From Eledone cirrhosa (taxonomy: Eukaryota; Mollusca; Cephalopoda; Octopoda; Eledonidae): a DNA stretch of 64,000 nucleotides. The translations under genes were made by a program, and so were the position numbers. The stretch is from NCBI GenBank assembly GCA_964016885.1, contig OZ024743.1, positions 168,800,333 to 168,864,332 on the forward strand, in the 5' to 3' direction. The notes under the pieces are model-generated. The model saw only the letters and a program-made list of their open reading frames with translations. It did not search any database and was not told the DNA's origin. Positions 19,357-53,900 of the stretch are shown here, in pieces (the first letter of the stretch is position 1; every line of letters starts with the position of its first letter).

Positions 19357-20016
19357 AAGAACAGTCAGACAAAATATATCCATTTTTTTCTCCTCCTTAG
19401 TCCGTAGAAATTAACCAGATAAATAATCATTTAAAAGGAGCTAAGTTTAATATGTAACTTTGAAGAAATAACAGATAAATATTACAGACTTTGCTCAGTG
19501 AGGAACAGTCAGATAAGATTTACCTAGTCTTTCCTCTTAGTCCGTAGAAATTAACAAGACAAATAATCAATTAAACGGGGCTAAGTTTAAAATGTAAGTT
19601 TGAAGAAAAAATGCATATAAACTTTACCGATGTTCTTAAAGTCCCGACTATCGATAGTTTCGCTCGTACTTAGTGAATATGTCCAAACCTGGTATTATCC
19701 ATGAGGTATCGAGCTTTTCAAGAGACTACCTCAGTTAAGACTAAAATTTCTAAAGTGATCGCCGCCAGAAATGATTTCAAAAGGGGTAAAAAAACATCAC
19801 GTGAAGTTAGGCCGGATGGCGAGTAGGTTCCTTGCTAGAAGTAGCAGCTAGTTACCGCCTAAGGTTTACTCGACCGAAAGGGAGTATAGAATAAATTCAT
19901 AAGGTTATATATGTATATATTTAGATATAGTCACAGATACATATATGAGTGAGGCCACCTTTAACGGTGTGGCTCTATGAAAAATTAATTAAGCAAATAA
20001 TTATTAATCAGAGCAA
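19357..20016 (-). mobile_element. 660-bp retrozyme-like element, 18-bp TSD
   Basis: Flanked by perfect 18-bp repeats TATAAAATTATAAATTTG (19339-19356 and 20017-20034). No coding. It contains a 142-bp tandem duplication (GAACAGTCAGACAAAATA at 19358 and GAACAGTCAGATAAGATT at 19500, each with TCCGTAGAAATTAAC and GCTAAGTTTAA) and a hammerhead ribozyme at 19641-19726. The block CTCGACCGAAAGGGAGT near 19867 matches CTCGACCAGAGGGAGTT in the 591-bp units at 30.0-31.2 kb, so the two are one family. The size, lack of coding and single ribozyme resemble animal retrozymes or non-autonomous PLEs. Confidence 0.7.
19641..19726 (-). ncRNA. hammerhead ribozyme, type I, U3-A8 core variant
   Basis: Minus strand: stem I GUCUC (19726-19722); core UUGAAAA (19721-19715); stem II GCUCG with CGAGC (19714-19710, 19666-19662), five perfect pairs; GAA (19661-19659); stem III ACUAUCGAUAGU (19658-19647), a perfect palindrome; C17 (19646); stem I GGGAC (19645-19641), five pairs with one G-U. 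The usual C3 and G8 are U and A here, which keeps the 3-8 pair. Stem II encloses a loop of about 43 nt. Cleavage would follow GUC. Confidence 0.75.
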
Positions 20017-20047
20017 TATAAAATTATAAATTTGTATATATATATAT

Positions 20048-20180
20048 ATAAGGAAAAGAAATCAAAAATGCAACTGGAGTCTTTTTAAGAATATTTATTT
20101 GTTGAAATAAATGAATATTCTTTGAAACAAATAAATATTCTTAAAAAGACTCCAGTTGCATTTTTTATTTCTTTCCTTAT
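20048..20180. repeat. long near-perfect hairpin, about 53-bp stem
   Basis: ATGCAACTGGAGTCTTTTTA with its flanks (20051-20103) is inverted at 20126-20180 with one or two differences. The loop is about 22 nt. The arms end in AAGGAAAAGAAAT and ATTTCTTTCCTT. A transcript would form long double-stranded RNA; there is no sign that it is a microRNA precursor rather than a foldback transposon. Confidence 0.85.
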
Positions 20181-20239
20181 ACTTTCACTCGTGTCGAACA
20201 ACTCGTTTTTTTCTTTAAAAAAAAAACCTAATTTTCTTA

Positions 20240-20291
20240 TATATATATATATATATATATATATATATATATATATATATATATATATATA
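20240..20291. repeat. TA microsatellite
   Basis: Pure TA run; TTTAAGTGTTATA-type short repeats follow. Confidence 0.95.
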
Positions 20292-20860
20292 AGACTTTAA
20301 GTGTTATATATATAACTTTAAGTGTTATAAGAGCAGTATGTAATTTTGTGGGGGCCCGGGAGCGGCAAACTGAAAGAGTTCACACTCTAGCTACGTCATT
20401 GCAAACAGTAAAAGTTTTCTTTTCTTCTTCAGGTATAATTCTATAACAATTAGTGAAATAAAATCTCATTATACCTTATTGACTTCTGCACTTTCTGTCT
20501 TAAAATACCAGGAAGAGTAATTATATAAATGCCCTCTGCTCCCTTATCACTACTAGGCGAGAAACAAATCAGTTAGGTCAATTTTTGATATCAAATACAG
20601 TAATTTAATATGACACGAATAGTAGAACGGGTGCATTAAATACATTTCGTTATGAAGATTCGAACACTGATTTGCAGTCATAACTCAATGTTACTTTCTA
20701 TCTCTTCTATATCAATAAAATAAGCCATAGTAGTATAGTCTTCATGATATGCAAATATAGTGAGTTGATAGGCACAGCAAATTATTGGCACTAAAACACC
20801 TTAAATATTTTAGTTTAATAAAAATAAGTATTACTATATAATGCTGACCGTCACTACTAT
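20292..20860. other. no gene seen
   Basis: AT-rich DNA with no recognisable coding or repeats apart from a short GGGGGCCCGGG block near 20350. Confidence 0.5.
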
Positions 20861-21044
20861 GGATTGGCAGTATCGGTAGAGCGTCGGACAATATGCTTCG
20901 CGGAATAGAATTACAGCCTTTACGTTCTGAGTTCAAATTCCGCCAAGGTCGATAAAATGAAATATCGGTATCGCAATGGGGTCAATTTGATCAACTTTTC
21001 CGTCCCCTAAATTGTTGGCATTGTGCCTAAATTAGAAACCGCTA
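20861..21044 (+). mobile_element. octopus tRNA SINE, diverged subfamily
   Basis: GGATTGGCAGTATCGGTAGA with GCGTCGGACAATATGCTTCG, GAGTTCAAATTCCGCC and a long tail GGGGTCAATTTGATCAACTT ending TTGTGCCTAAATTAGAAAC. The tail follows the same longer pattern as the SINEs at 49.5-49.9 kb. Confidence 0.9.
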
Positions 21045-51490: not shown

Positions 51491-51645
51491 ACTTACACAC
51501 AGACGCACATACACACGAACACACACACACACACACACACACACACTATTACACACACACACACACAAACACACACTCACTCACACACACACACACACAC
51601 ACACACACACACACACACACACACACACTTATATATATATAAACT
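51491..51645. repeat. CA microsatellite with TA tail
   Basis: Interrupted CA run from 51520 to 51628, then TATATATATA. Confidence 0.95.
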
Positions 51646-51654
51646 TGTTCTGCA

Positions 51655-52560
51655 AAATTCTTGATGTGAAATCGTGTGTTGAAACCGATTTATATTTGGG
51701 GAAGGTCATATTGTCAATATTGCCAATAGAAAGAAGCACACGCACCATATCATTTTCACTTTATCTTTAATGTTTTTATTCATTTGATTATCAGGACCAA
51801 ACCCAACAATATCTCTAGTGTTAGTCGTAGCAAAACCTACCACATAACACACAATAATAGTGACAAGCTTGAACAAGCAATCAAAAATGAGACTAGTATA
51901 CGTACTCTACCCCCTAGAACTAGACGTAACAAAAACTCTAAGAATAGCTAACAAACCAGTGCCTCAATAAAAACAAAAAGATCTAGAAGTAGAACATACT
52001 TCGGGCATAATCCTGTCTTTAACTAGGCAATTAATACCAATCTACCCTTAGTTTTTTTTTTTCAATCTAATAGATAAACATTTCCCTAAATCGTACAAAT
52101 ACCACAACATTTTTAATAGGAAAACCATCAGATTATCGTACTCAATCGCGATGAATCTTGATGCGTACATAAAGAGGCTAAAAAAAGACTTTATCAAAGC
52201 ATAATAATATACAAGAGTAGCATAAATTCTAAAAACAAGCACAACTAATTAGCTATTCCACAACCGACTAACCAACATAATATCACAAACCTGCGGAGCA
52301 TAATCAAATCTTCATCACAACCTAATCCAACTCATAATAAAGATAGAAACATTTTCTACTGTAACTACCCGCCAACCAGATAAATGGCTTATCCCATTGC
52401 CTTATTATACCTTTCATGTACACTCTGACGCCAGTGGTAAACATTTAGCTAAAACTTATAAAAAATAACGACAATTCTTTATCTATAAACCTATCAACAC
52501 CCTCCTAAAAACGAGTAGATCAACAGACTGATACATGTCAACAATCTTCTAGGACAAATA
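51655..52560 (+). mobile_element. PLE debris, plus strand
   Basis: Begins with the GAAATCGTGTGT module. Plus frames then give INTNLPLVFFFN and LIDKHFPKSYKYHNIFNRKT with IRLSYSIAMNLDAYIKRLKK, which corresponds to the FPTQHKYHSIFNRHTIKLSY segment before the cysteine knuckle in PLE copy 1. Beyond 52200 the coding is too decayed to follow. Confidence 0.6.
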
Positions 52561-53221
52561 GCCACTGGTCAGTGCAACAAAGCACTTCCAACCAATCAGC
52601 AGCCAAACCCTCTGACTTGCCATGTCCAACACAAACGTTTAACCTCTACTATGAACTCTCTATGTATACGCTTACTTACTGTCTTTCTTTTTTCTTTCTT
52701 CCTTTTTTTATATTTTTTAATATTGTTATGCCTCTCTTGTATATGTCTACTATTCTTCCTATCTACACGCCTACCCATCATATATGCTCCTAACAAGTCG
52801 TCTCTCTGTTTTGATAATTTTTTATGCACGGAGTTAAAATTTCTTTCAACCTATTAGAATTCGATATTTCCCCGATTGATTATTGGGAATAGCGGCTTCA
52901 AAACAAGCCCATTCCTTGAATTTAGTCACGCTATTACCCACCTCCTCAGGATATTCATTCTTTCTTCAATGCACAGCCCACAAATCGGATTTCCATTTCT
53001 GTATGTAATGATCTAACGTGGGTTACCTCCCCTTTGGGAAGTGACTGCTTCTGCGCATGTGTACTCGTACAATTGTTTTTTCCTTTCCGTACAATCTCAT
53101 TTAAACGAAACTGATAATCCAAATAAGGTGAAACTCATCCCATAGACTGAGTGCCCTACTACTAAGGTTATAACCACCTGTATTCTGCTATTATATATAC
53201 GTACATATACACATACATATA
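52561..53221. other. no gene seen
   Basis: Unrecognised AT-rich DNA. The open frames are low complexity (SFFLPFFIFFNIV). Confidence 0.5.
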
Positions 53222-53428
53222 CTCACACACACACACGCACACACACACACATATACTCACACACACACACGCACGCACACACACACACACACACACACAC
53301 ACACACACACACACACACACACACACACACACACACACACACACACACACACATATATATATATATATGTATATATATATATATATATATATATATATAT
53401 ATATATATATATATATATATATATATAA
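53222..53428. repeat. compound CA-TA microsatellite
   Basis: CA run to 53353, then TA to 53428. Confidence 0.98.
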
Positions 53429-53449
53429 CGAATATATATATATATAACG

Positions 53450-53900
53450 AATGAAGTGTGGTAAGGAACCAGGTGGACCATAACCGCACCAGAGTACTCA
53501 ATACTTAGGGTAGTAGAGTGGGTAATAGGAAAATGTTCAAGACCCCGACGGCAGAACTCAAGCTGTTTCGATGGCTATTTCTGGACTAAATTAGATTTTT
53601 AGCGTGGTAATAAATAGCCGAACTTTTCAAGGGGTAATTCCTCATATGGGAATATTATAGTTGTCAAAAGGATTGGTCAAAATTTCTTGTAAACACAATT
53701 AAATCATTCATGGCGGTGGGTTGGAGGTGGTGGTGGCTGAACTTGCTTGTAGATCAATGAGGGAGTGGGTGGAGCCGGTCAAGCGTTTAATATGAATTCA
53801 TACAACAAATTCTAAGGTGTGTGGAAGAAGTTAGGCTAGCTAGAAAGCAGGCTAAAAAAGAATTCTAGAGGAATCTGAGAGTGGGAAGTTATAAAATTAA
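53450..53900 (-). mobile_element. retrozyme-like element, third family member
   Basis: Non-coding, with a hammerhead at 53542-53635 whose core and order match the 19.6- and 30.2-kb copies (shared text CAAGNGGNNAYNCCTCAT on the plus strand just 5' of the core). Ends not found; it is diverged and followed by AT-rich sequence and an A run (53980-53999). Confidence 0.55.
53542..53635 (-). ncRNA. hammerhead ribozyme, U3-A8 core variant
   Basis: Minus strand: stem I ACCCC (53635-53631); core UUGAAAA (53630-53624); stem II with an eight-pair helix GGCUAUUU and AAAUAGCC (53619-53612, 53580-53573) above a short irregular base; GAA (53569-53567); stem III ACAGC..GCCGU (53566-53548), four of five pairs; C17 (53547); stem I GGGGU (53546-53542), five perfect pairs. 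Same U3 and A8 as the other two family members, with different helices. Confidence 0.65.

Follow-up and report, generated by a model that had tools for sequence, protein, structure and literature searches.

Hammerhead-type motifs with a U3-A8 core, predicted to self-cut, in likely Penelope-like retrotransposons of the octopus Eledone cirrhosa

In the genome of the octopus Eledone cirrhosa (assembly GCA_964016885.1), hammerhead-type motifs in which the core pair C3-G8 is replaced by U3-A8 occur in thousands of copies, and with good confidence we read them as predicted self-cutting ribozymes of likely Penelope-like retrotransposons and of a short tandem relative. The analysis centers on a stretch of 64,000 nucleotides (contig OZ024743.1, positions 168,800,333 to 168,864,332, forward strand; hereafter the window), where the exchange is found in four copies at three loci, here called A19, B30, and C53. 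In the best-studied ribozyme, hardly any letters are more conserved than those at positions 3 and 8, and the latter lies at the catalytic site. The U3-A8 core is real, widespread and not the product of random decay, and it is the usual core of two genome-wide families.

The original prediction held that three elements of the window carry UUGAUAA or UUGAAAA cores with a matched exchange of U3-A8 for C3-G8, within stems that differ and still pair. The cores and all accompanying motifs are present on the minus strand, the exchange occurs in all four window copies, and the stem I arms pair at each locus; the proposal of a single subfamily did not hold, as the loci represent three families. The A19 ribozyme (19641..19726, minus strand) has the type I hammerhead layout and the core UUGAAAA, with position 3 at 19721, position 8 at 19716 and a predicted cut between 19646 and 19645. 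The first B30 ribozyme (30211..30298, minus strand) has the core UUGAUAA, with position 3 at 30293, position 8 at 30288 and a predicted cut between 30216 and 30215, and an identical second copy lies 591 bp away at 30802..30889 on the same strand. Both belong to a minus-strand tandem array (29977..31220) of a 591-bp unit, comprising two full and one partial unit with (TA)n flanks. The C53 ribozyme (53542..53635, minus strand) has the core UUGAAAA, with position 3 at 53630, position 8 at 53625 and a predicted cut between 53547 and 53546. The core together with the arms of stem I reads GUCUC-UUGAAAA...GGGAC in A19 (with one U.G wobble), UCCUC-UUGAUAA...GAGGA in both B30 copies, and ACCCC-UUGAAAA...GGGGU in C53. 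At all three loci the order of elements is stem I, UUGANAA, stem II, GAAA, stem III, C17, and the second arm of stem I; in each copy GAAA, A15.1-U16.1, and C17 are in place and stem II begins with G10.1-C11.1, and stem-loop II of the U3-A8 ribozymes spans 53-57 nt. The window copy of C53 is partly decayed, with an A.C mismatch in stem III, a stem that reads ACGGC/GCCGU in most other copies of the family. Directly 3' of A19 on its strand lies an imperfect tandem repeat of about 140 bp (19355-19630; 2 copies, about 80% alike).

A short conserved core in an A/T-rich genome invites the explanation that the resemblance is due to chance, and looser scans do yield chance-like matches: two further U3-A8 matches in the window, and 4 of 12 U3-A8 rows across the window and the loci L001-L021. 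A strict hammerhead descriptor with the U3-A8 core, applied to the window, returned exactly A19, the two B30 copies, and C53, against a mean of 0.15 and a maximum of 2 matches in 100 dinucleotide shuffles; requiring at least three G/C in stem I lowered the shuffle mean to 0.01. The canonical CUGANGA descriptor gave two window matches (shuffle mean 0.09), both with A/U-rich stem I arms, and these look like chance. Across the window and L001-L021, the canonical core and other letter pairs at positions 3 and 8 likewise produced only chance-like matches, one of them in L015. A covariance model of the three loci, a check proposed with the original prediction, was left blank at positions 3, 7, and 8 and built from masked sequences because MAFFT alignments of the loci misplaced GAAA. 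The three input loci match such a model by construction (A19 scores 48.1 bits over 19641..19726), and the blank positions are the test. In 269 kb of the same genome it gave eight matches at E up to 5, four in the window and four in the locus L019, and all eight are U3-A8 copies of the three families, with E <= 7.7e-8. Shuffles, blank-position model, and the genome counts given below, thousands of copies against controls of 12 and 0, rule out chance as the source of the four window copies, and as a general explanation we regard it as next to impossible.

To the window and L019 we added the loci L022-L051, of which 29 of 30 gave a ribozyme match (L049 gave none and L043 two), for a covariation set of 38 ribozymes, 28 of them distinct. 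Paired cells make up 91.2% of the 38 rows. Changes on both sides of a pair were seen in 9 of 15 pairs, against a shuffle mean of 1.7 (none of 500 shuffles reached 9) and 0-2 in slid controls. The stems thus differ between families but pairing is kept, as had been claimed. Stems I-III surround the core in the three-way junction of a hammerhead, and the core letters U4, G5, A6, A9, G12, A13, A14, A15.1-U16.1, and H17 are all found, single copies deviating in L041 (AAAA for GAAA) and in the second copy of L043 (U9); the patterns used for searching prescribed U4, G5, A6, and A9, and the constancy of these four among the fetched copies in part reflects that choice. The usual letters C3 and G8 are missing here, U3-A8 standing in their place in 27 of the 28 distinct rows, and the families fit the wider usage of PMC3088659, which asks that positions 3 and 8 form a standard pair. 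In the C53 family (L022-L051), stem II contains a bulge beside a variable, mostly non-standard 10.2/11.2 pair that adjoins the catalytic core.

To assess how widely the core occurs, the 2.98-Gb genome was searched with one pattern for the C53 context and one that fits B30 and A19, each set against a control (for C53, the reversed pattern). With positions 3, 7, and 8 left blank, the C53-context pattern had 6,367 matches at <= 1 mismatch, against 12 for the control. The exact U3-A8 form occurs in 3,396 copies (control 0), and exact C3-G8 in a single copy. Similarly, the pattern fitting B30 and A19, blank at the same three positions, gave 3,813 exact matches against 0 for its control, and in this context exact C3-G8 was found nowhere in the genome. 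The 100 C53-context matches listed of the 6,367, every one of them exact and located on a single contig within its first 89 Mb, comprise 93 with U3-A8 and 7 with C3.A8; G8 occurs in none of them, and position 7 varies (G 56, A 16, C 16, U 12). Among the 100 B30/A19-pattern matches listed, all are of B30 type, with 99 U3-A8 and one U3.G8 as counted by eye. Copies were also sought in 20 stretches, each 10 kb long, drawn from four contigs at round coordinates: the 3' part of the C53 element (53453..53593, minus strand) has copies in 7 of the 20 at E < 1e-12 and in 8 at E < 1e-6, the eighth being the weaker match in L017. One of the 20, L019, holds B30 copies about 99.3% alike to those of the window, in head-to-head and tandem arrangement, whose four complete ribozymes read UUGAUAA. 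The A19 query matched solely its own locus in the window and these 20 stretches. One outcome named as able to overturn the original prediction, random decay of the helices and of positions 3 and 8, is not what these data show: 3,396 U3-A8 copies stand against one C3-G8 copy, and the helices covary.

The minority of C53-family copies that read CUGANAA carry a C.A mismatch that kept spreading or recurred (7 of the 100 listed). These C3.A8 copies are a natural single-change control for the core.

Wide distribution is also what would be seen if the ribozymes were dead, that is, if a source copy lost C3-G8 and U3-A8 was then copied thousands of times as a passenger, with the stems kept by descent only. 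We judge this improbable. The copies within a family are young, as the roughly 99.3% likeness of B30 between the window and L019 indicates, so that a shared U3-A8 core shows the state of the source copy and not selection by itself; the C3.A8 copies, and the observation that the hammerhead of a Penelope element of Anolis is unnecessary for insertion in vitro (PMC11167929, accessible text), also suit a dead ribozyme. Such a ribozyme would not be expected to keep its core while its stems change in step, and the three families, of which A19 and B30 are 65.8% alike over 158 bp, all keep UUGANAA, GAAA, U16.1, and C17; double changes affect 9 of 15 pairs while N7 varies.

In addition to the youth of the copies, the C3.A8 minority, and the dispensable Anolis hammerhead, several other points weigh against reading these motifs as functional ribozymes of Penelope-like elements. 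The alignment behind the covariation analysis was fitted to the structure, which favors pairing, and a single family supplies most of its rows. Stem II has a non-standard second pair, beside the bulge, in 23 of the 28 distinct rows. The minimum-energy fold of A19 (86 nt) is the hammerhead fold; in B30 and C53 the hammerhead fold lies 1.1 and 2.4 kcal/mol above the optimum, and for a wider stretch, folding without constraints does not outperform shuffles (z -0.95, -0.28, and -0.02), so that thermodynamics alone is insufficient for the case. In Anolis, the exchange C3G/G8C restores cutting only partly, and RNA ends at the hammerhead site were reported as not seen (PMC11167929). Self-cleavage of the U3-A8 copies is itself a prediction from the modeled structure, and the identity of the host element is drawn from homology, the motif YRDDG, weak GIY-YIG matches, and the insertion pattern; no model exceeded the cutoff in a Pfam/NCBIfam search of its reading frames, and a PDB search with the frames gave no matching sequence.

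The host of the C53 family is likely a Penelope-like element, an assignment made from its sequence; we say "likely Penelope-like" because none of the searches put a name to the family and no Pfam model reached its cutoff. Two sets of likely Penelope-like frame pieces on the minus strand of the window were used as probes. The first (26571..28170), whose link to B30 is unproven, includes a putative middle part of a reverse transcriptase (27721-28170) and a putative GIY-YIG part (26571-27206), with a GIY-YIG match at E 0.063, below the cutoff, and a retron reverse transcriptase match at E 0.00099, far below it. The second (48053..49439) had no Pfam match, and its frame at 48053-49060 has two homologues. 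Frames matching the putative reverse transcriptase or GIY-YIG-like pieces of the window occur in 15 of the 30 ribozyme loci L022-L051 (3 kb each); of 21 other loci, each 5-10 kb long, 4 have such frames. In L023, L024, L026, and L041, for example, they share the strand of the ribozyme and precede it, whereas in L033, L035, L040, L042, and L043 they are on the opposite strand. In L034 they also occur downstream: the ribozyme occupies 1500-1593, and a frame that opens at 1578, inside the ribozyme 3' end, continues to the locus end; its first Met is near 1779, some 185 nt past the ribozyme. A search with the protein of this frame, which carries YRDDG, gave 929 homologues (E up to 0.01), of which 120 were listed; one of them (P0084) is named "Reverse transcriptase domain" by its source, YRDDG is kept in 38 of 38 listed homologues aligned (L034 itself left out), and GIY-YIG was matched in 1 of these 38 (E 0.0011). 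YRDDG and a cysteine-rich GIY-YIG tail are features that we take to be marks of Penelope elements.

The arrangement of copies is in keeping with this assignment, with tandem and head-to-head copies at A/T-rich target sites as in Penelope elements. Among the sites listed, 23 of 24 B30 neighbors within 5 kb on the same strand are spaced at 589-595 bp, 14 of 15 B30 neighbors within 5 kb on opposite strands are head-to-head, and so are 23 of 26 C53-type neighbors within 10 kb on opposite strands. Eight C53-type copies examined have TA-rich ends, and several of them an inverted partial copy at the 5' end. In L043, two ribozymes (1429-1524, minus strand, and 2086-2181, plus strand) point apart around a short GIY-YIG-like fragment; this pair is a very short head-to-head copy.

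B30 differs in consisting of tandem units without a long reading frame, present as dimers and trimers, which under our preferred reading would likely be moved by a Penelope-type enzyme. Metazoan non-LTR retrozymes are likewise described as tandem non-coding units of 170-400 nt with a type I hammerhead in each (PMC7229834), and B30, with its short tandem non-coding unit of 591 bp and its type I hammerhead, has this organization. It could then be an ordinary metazoan retrozyme that spreads via small circular RNAs and is tied to Penelope only through use of the enzyme, a credible reading that we place just short of probable, given that metazoan retrozymes, as reported, are type I hammerhead tandem repeats that may be moved by Penelope-like elements. 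The 591-bp unit exceeds the length described for retrozymes, and the U3-A8 core sets B30 apart from those in the accessible account; moreover, this alternative is better seen as a special case of our preferred explanation than as its opponent, and our confidences in the two overlap.

If the ribozymes act as predicted, U3 and A8 would pair like C3 and G8, allowing the active core to form, and A8 would retain the 2'-hydroxyl that, judging from the abstract of PMC11300833, matters at G8. The RNA would be cut 3' of C17, which would release the element RNA from tandem or read-through transcripts. Stem III is self-complementary in both A19 (a 12-mer) and B30 (a 10-mer; ACUACGUAGU in the first B30 copy), and its computed stability as a duplex is -16.9 and -14.3 kcal/mol, respectively, against -0.3 and 0.0 kcal/mol as a hairpin. 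Because it would hardly hold as a hairpin, two ribozymes on one tandem transcript of B30 or A19 probably pair via stem III and cut as a dimer. This fits the dimer cutting that has been described for newt and amphibian hammerheads and proposed for Penelope type I hammerheads (PMC6155905; PMC7761336, accessible text). In the C53 family stem III is a 5-bp hairpin, which would permit cutting as a monomer.

A contact between stem I and loop II was considered as well. In A19, the loop II segment UACCUCA (19702..19708, minus strand) could form 7 base pairs with UGAGGUA, which lies immediately 5' of stem I (19727-19733), a candidate kissing pairing resembling those of pseudoknotted hammerheads (PMC3088659; PMC11300833); 4 of 5000 shuffled loops reach 7 pairs, and 7 of 500 in a second test. 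The B30 counterpart, of 5 bp, is weak, being equaled by 157 of 5000 shuffles for the near part of the loop and by 325 of 500 for the whole loop. Pairing of the segment 5' of stem I with loop II was absent in the C53 family when tested against shuffles, so that the likeness to pseudoknotted hammerheads is unsupported there, and an earlier, laxer test that allowed G.U pairs gave no support. Because the pairing is good in A19, weak in B30, and absent in the C53 family, we dropped it as a family feature.

While positions 3 and 8 are usually C and G, published exchanges of this pair, to which the original prediction had pointed as a check, turned out to include the one found here: U3-A8 was reported in several natural hammerheads in 2011, and according to the same paper, ribozymes with covarying letters at 3 and 8 had previously proved active in vitro (Perreault et al., 2011; PMC3088659). 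The exchange itself is therefore not new. The natural hammerheads of that report share the same paired change at 3 and 8, but that report speaks of "several" examples, whereas here U3-A8 is the usual core of two families with thousands of copies each and of a third, diverged locus in one genome, in likely Penelope-like elements and a relative. In the open literature on the core exchange and on octopus, cephalopod, and Penelope hammerheads we found no description of a single genome with three diverged ribozyme families, two of which number thousands of copies, that usually carry U3-A8. Nor did this literature yield an account of a transposon lineage with a U3-A8 core, which is weak evidence of absence, as subscription papers and supplements were outside its scope.

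Penelope hammerheads as such were already known (Cervera and de la Pena, 2014; Lunse et al., 2017, via PMC7761336 and PMC6155905). The families described here share with them the type I layout, the site near the start of the (here putative) reverse transcriptase/GIY-YIG frame, tandem copies, A/T-rich sites, and, as proposed, dimer cutting; they differ in their 53-57-nt stem-loop II and the 5-bp stem III of the C53 family, since the Penelope hammerheads in the accessible descriptions are without helix III letters or loop contacts. The L034 frame at the ribozyme 3' end resembles that of the Anolis element PAc, which begins at stem II of its hammerhead; PAc has C3 and G8, in contrast to the U3-A8 of the families here (PMC11167929). 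The Anolis hammerhead was reported to cut only with protein present (PMC11167929), and together with insertion without the hammerhead, the partial rescue by G3-C8 and the missing RNA ends this suggests that the role of such ribozymes may be subtle. Similarly, the cave-cricket satellite pDo500 of Dolichopoda has a hammerhead in each tandem repeat and compensatory stem changes, but keeps C3 and G8, which in the accessible account are changed in 4 and 2 of 198 sequences (PMC2837043).

Standard searches had been expected to miss these cores, and for Rfam this was borne out. Its hammerhead models gave no match at gathering score in the window, and a hammerhead is absent among the 150 listed of 183 weaker Rfam matches for the window and among 94 Rfam rows for seven family loci; either the core change or the 53-57-nt stem-loop II may be the cause. 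A search with RF00008 returned nothing in the genome of E. cirrhosa and nothing in 14 control genomes, and is thus uninformative.

Other features of the window include long inverted repeats at 20055-20174 (58-nt arms, 91%) and 54080-54364 (77-nt arms, 84%), which overlap weak Rfam matches to plant microRNAs and are perhaps foldback transposons. Frames at 3956-6760 presumably represent replication/helicase pieces of a Helitron, and on the minus strand at 15500-15700 lies what we take to be a tRNA-derived SINE-like sequence of a kind present in cephalopods.

A bolder proposal is that a whole Penelope-like lineage with its satellites swapped C3-G8 for U3-A8 and that the new pair persisted while at least three ribozyme families diverged. 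Its weaker A-U core would then perhaps be an adaptation for conditional cutting, which would depend either on a second ribozyme in the tandem transcript (through stem III, for A19 and B30) or on the protein of the element, much as the Anolis hammerhead was reported to cut only with protein. We offer this tentatively, as possible and on balance unlikely; if it is true, the lineage-wide U3-A8 core would be a large natural experiment on the design of the hammerhead core, with thousands of sequences outside Rfam. The present results suggest that whole lineages of transposons can escape hammerhead surveys that rely on CUGANGA. With two families in thousands of copies and a third, diverged locus, the U3-A8 hammerhead moves from a rare curiosity to a natural family, the tolerance of the core becomes testable with wild sequences, and these families offer a clean way to ask whether Penelope elements make any use of their hammerheads.

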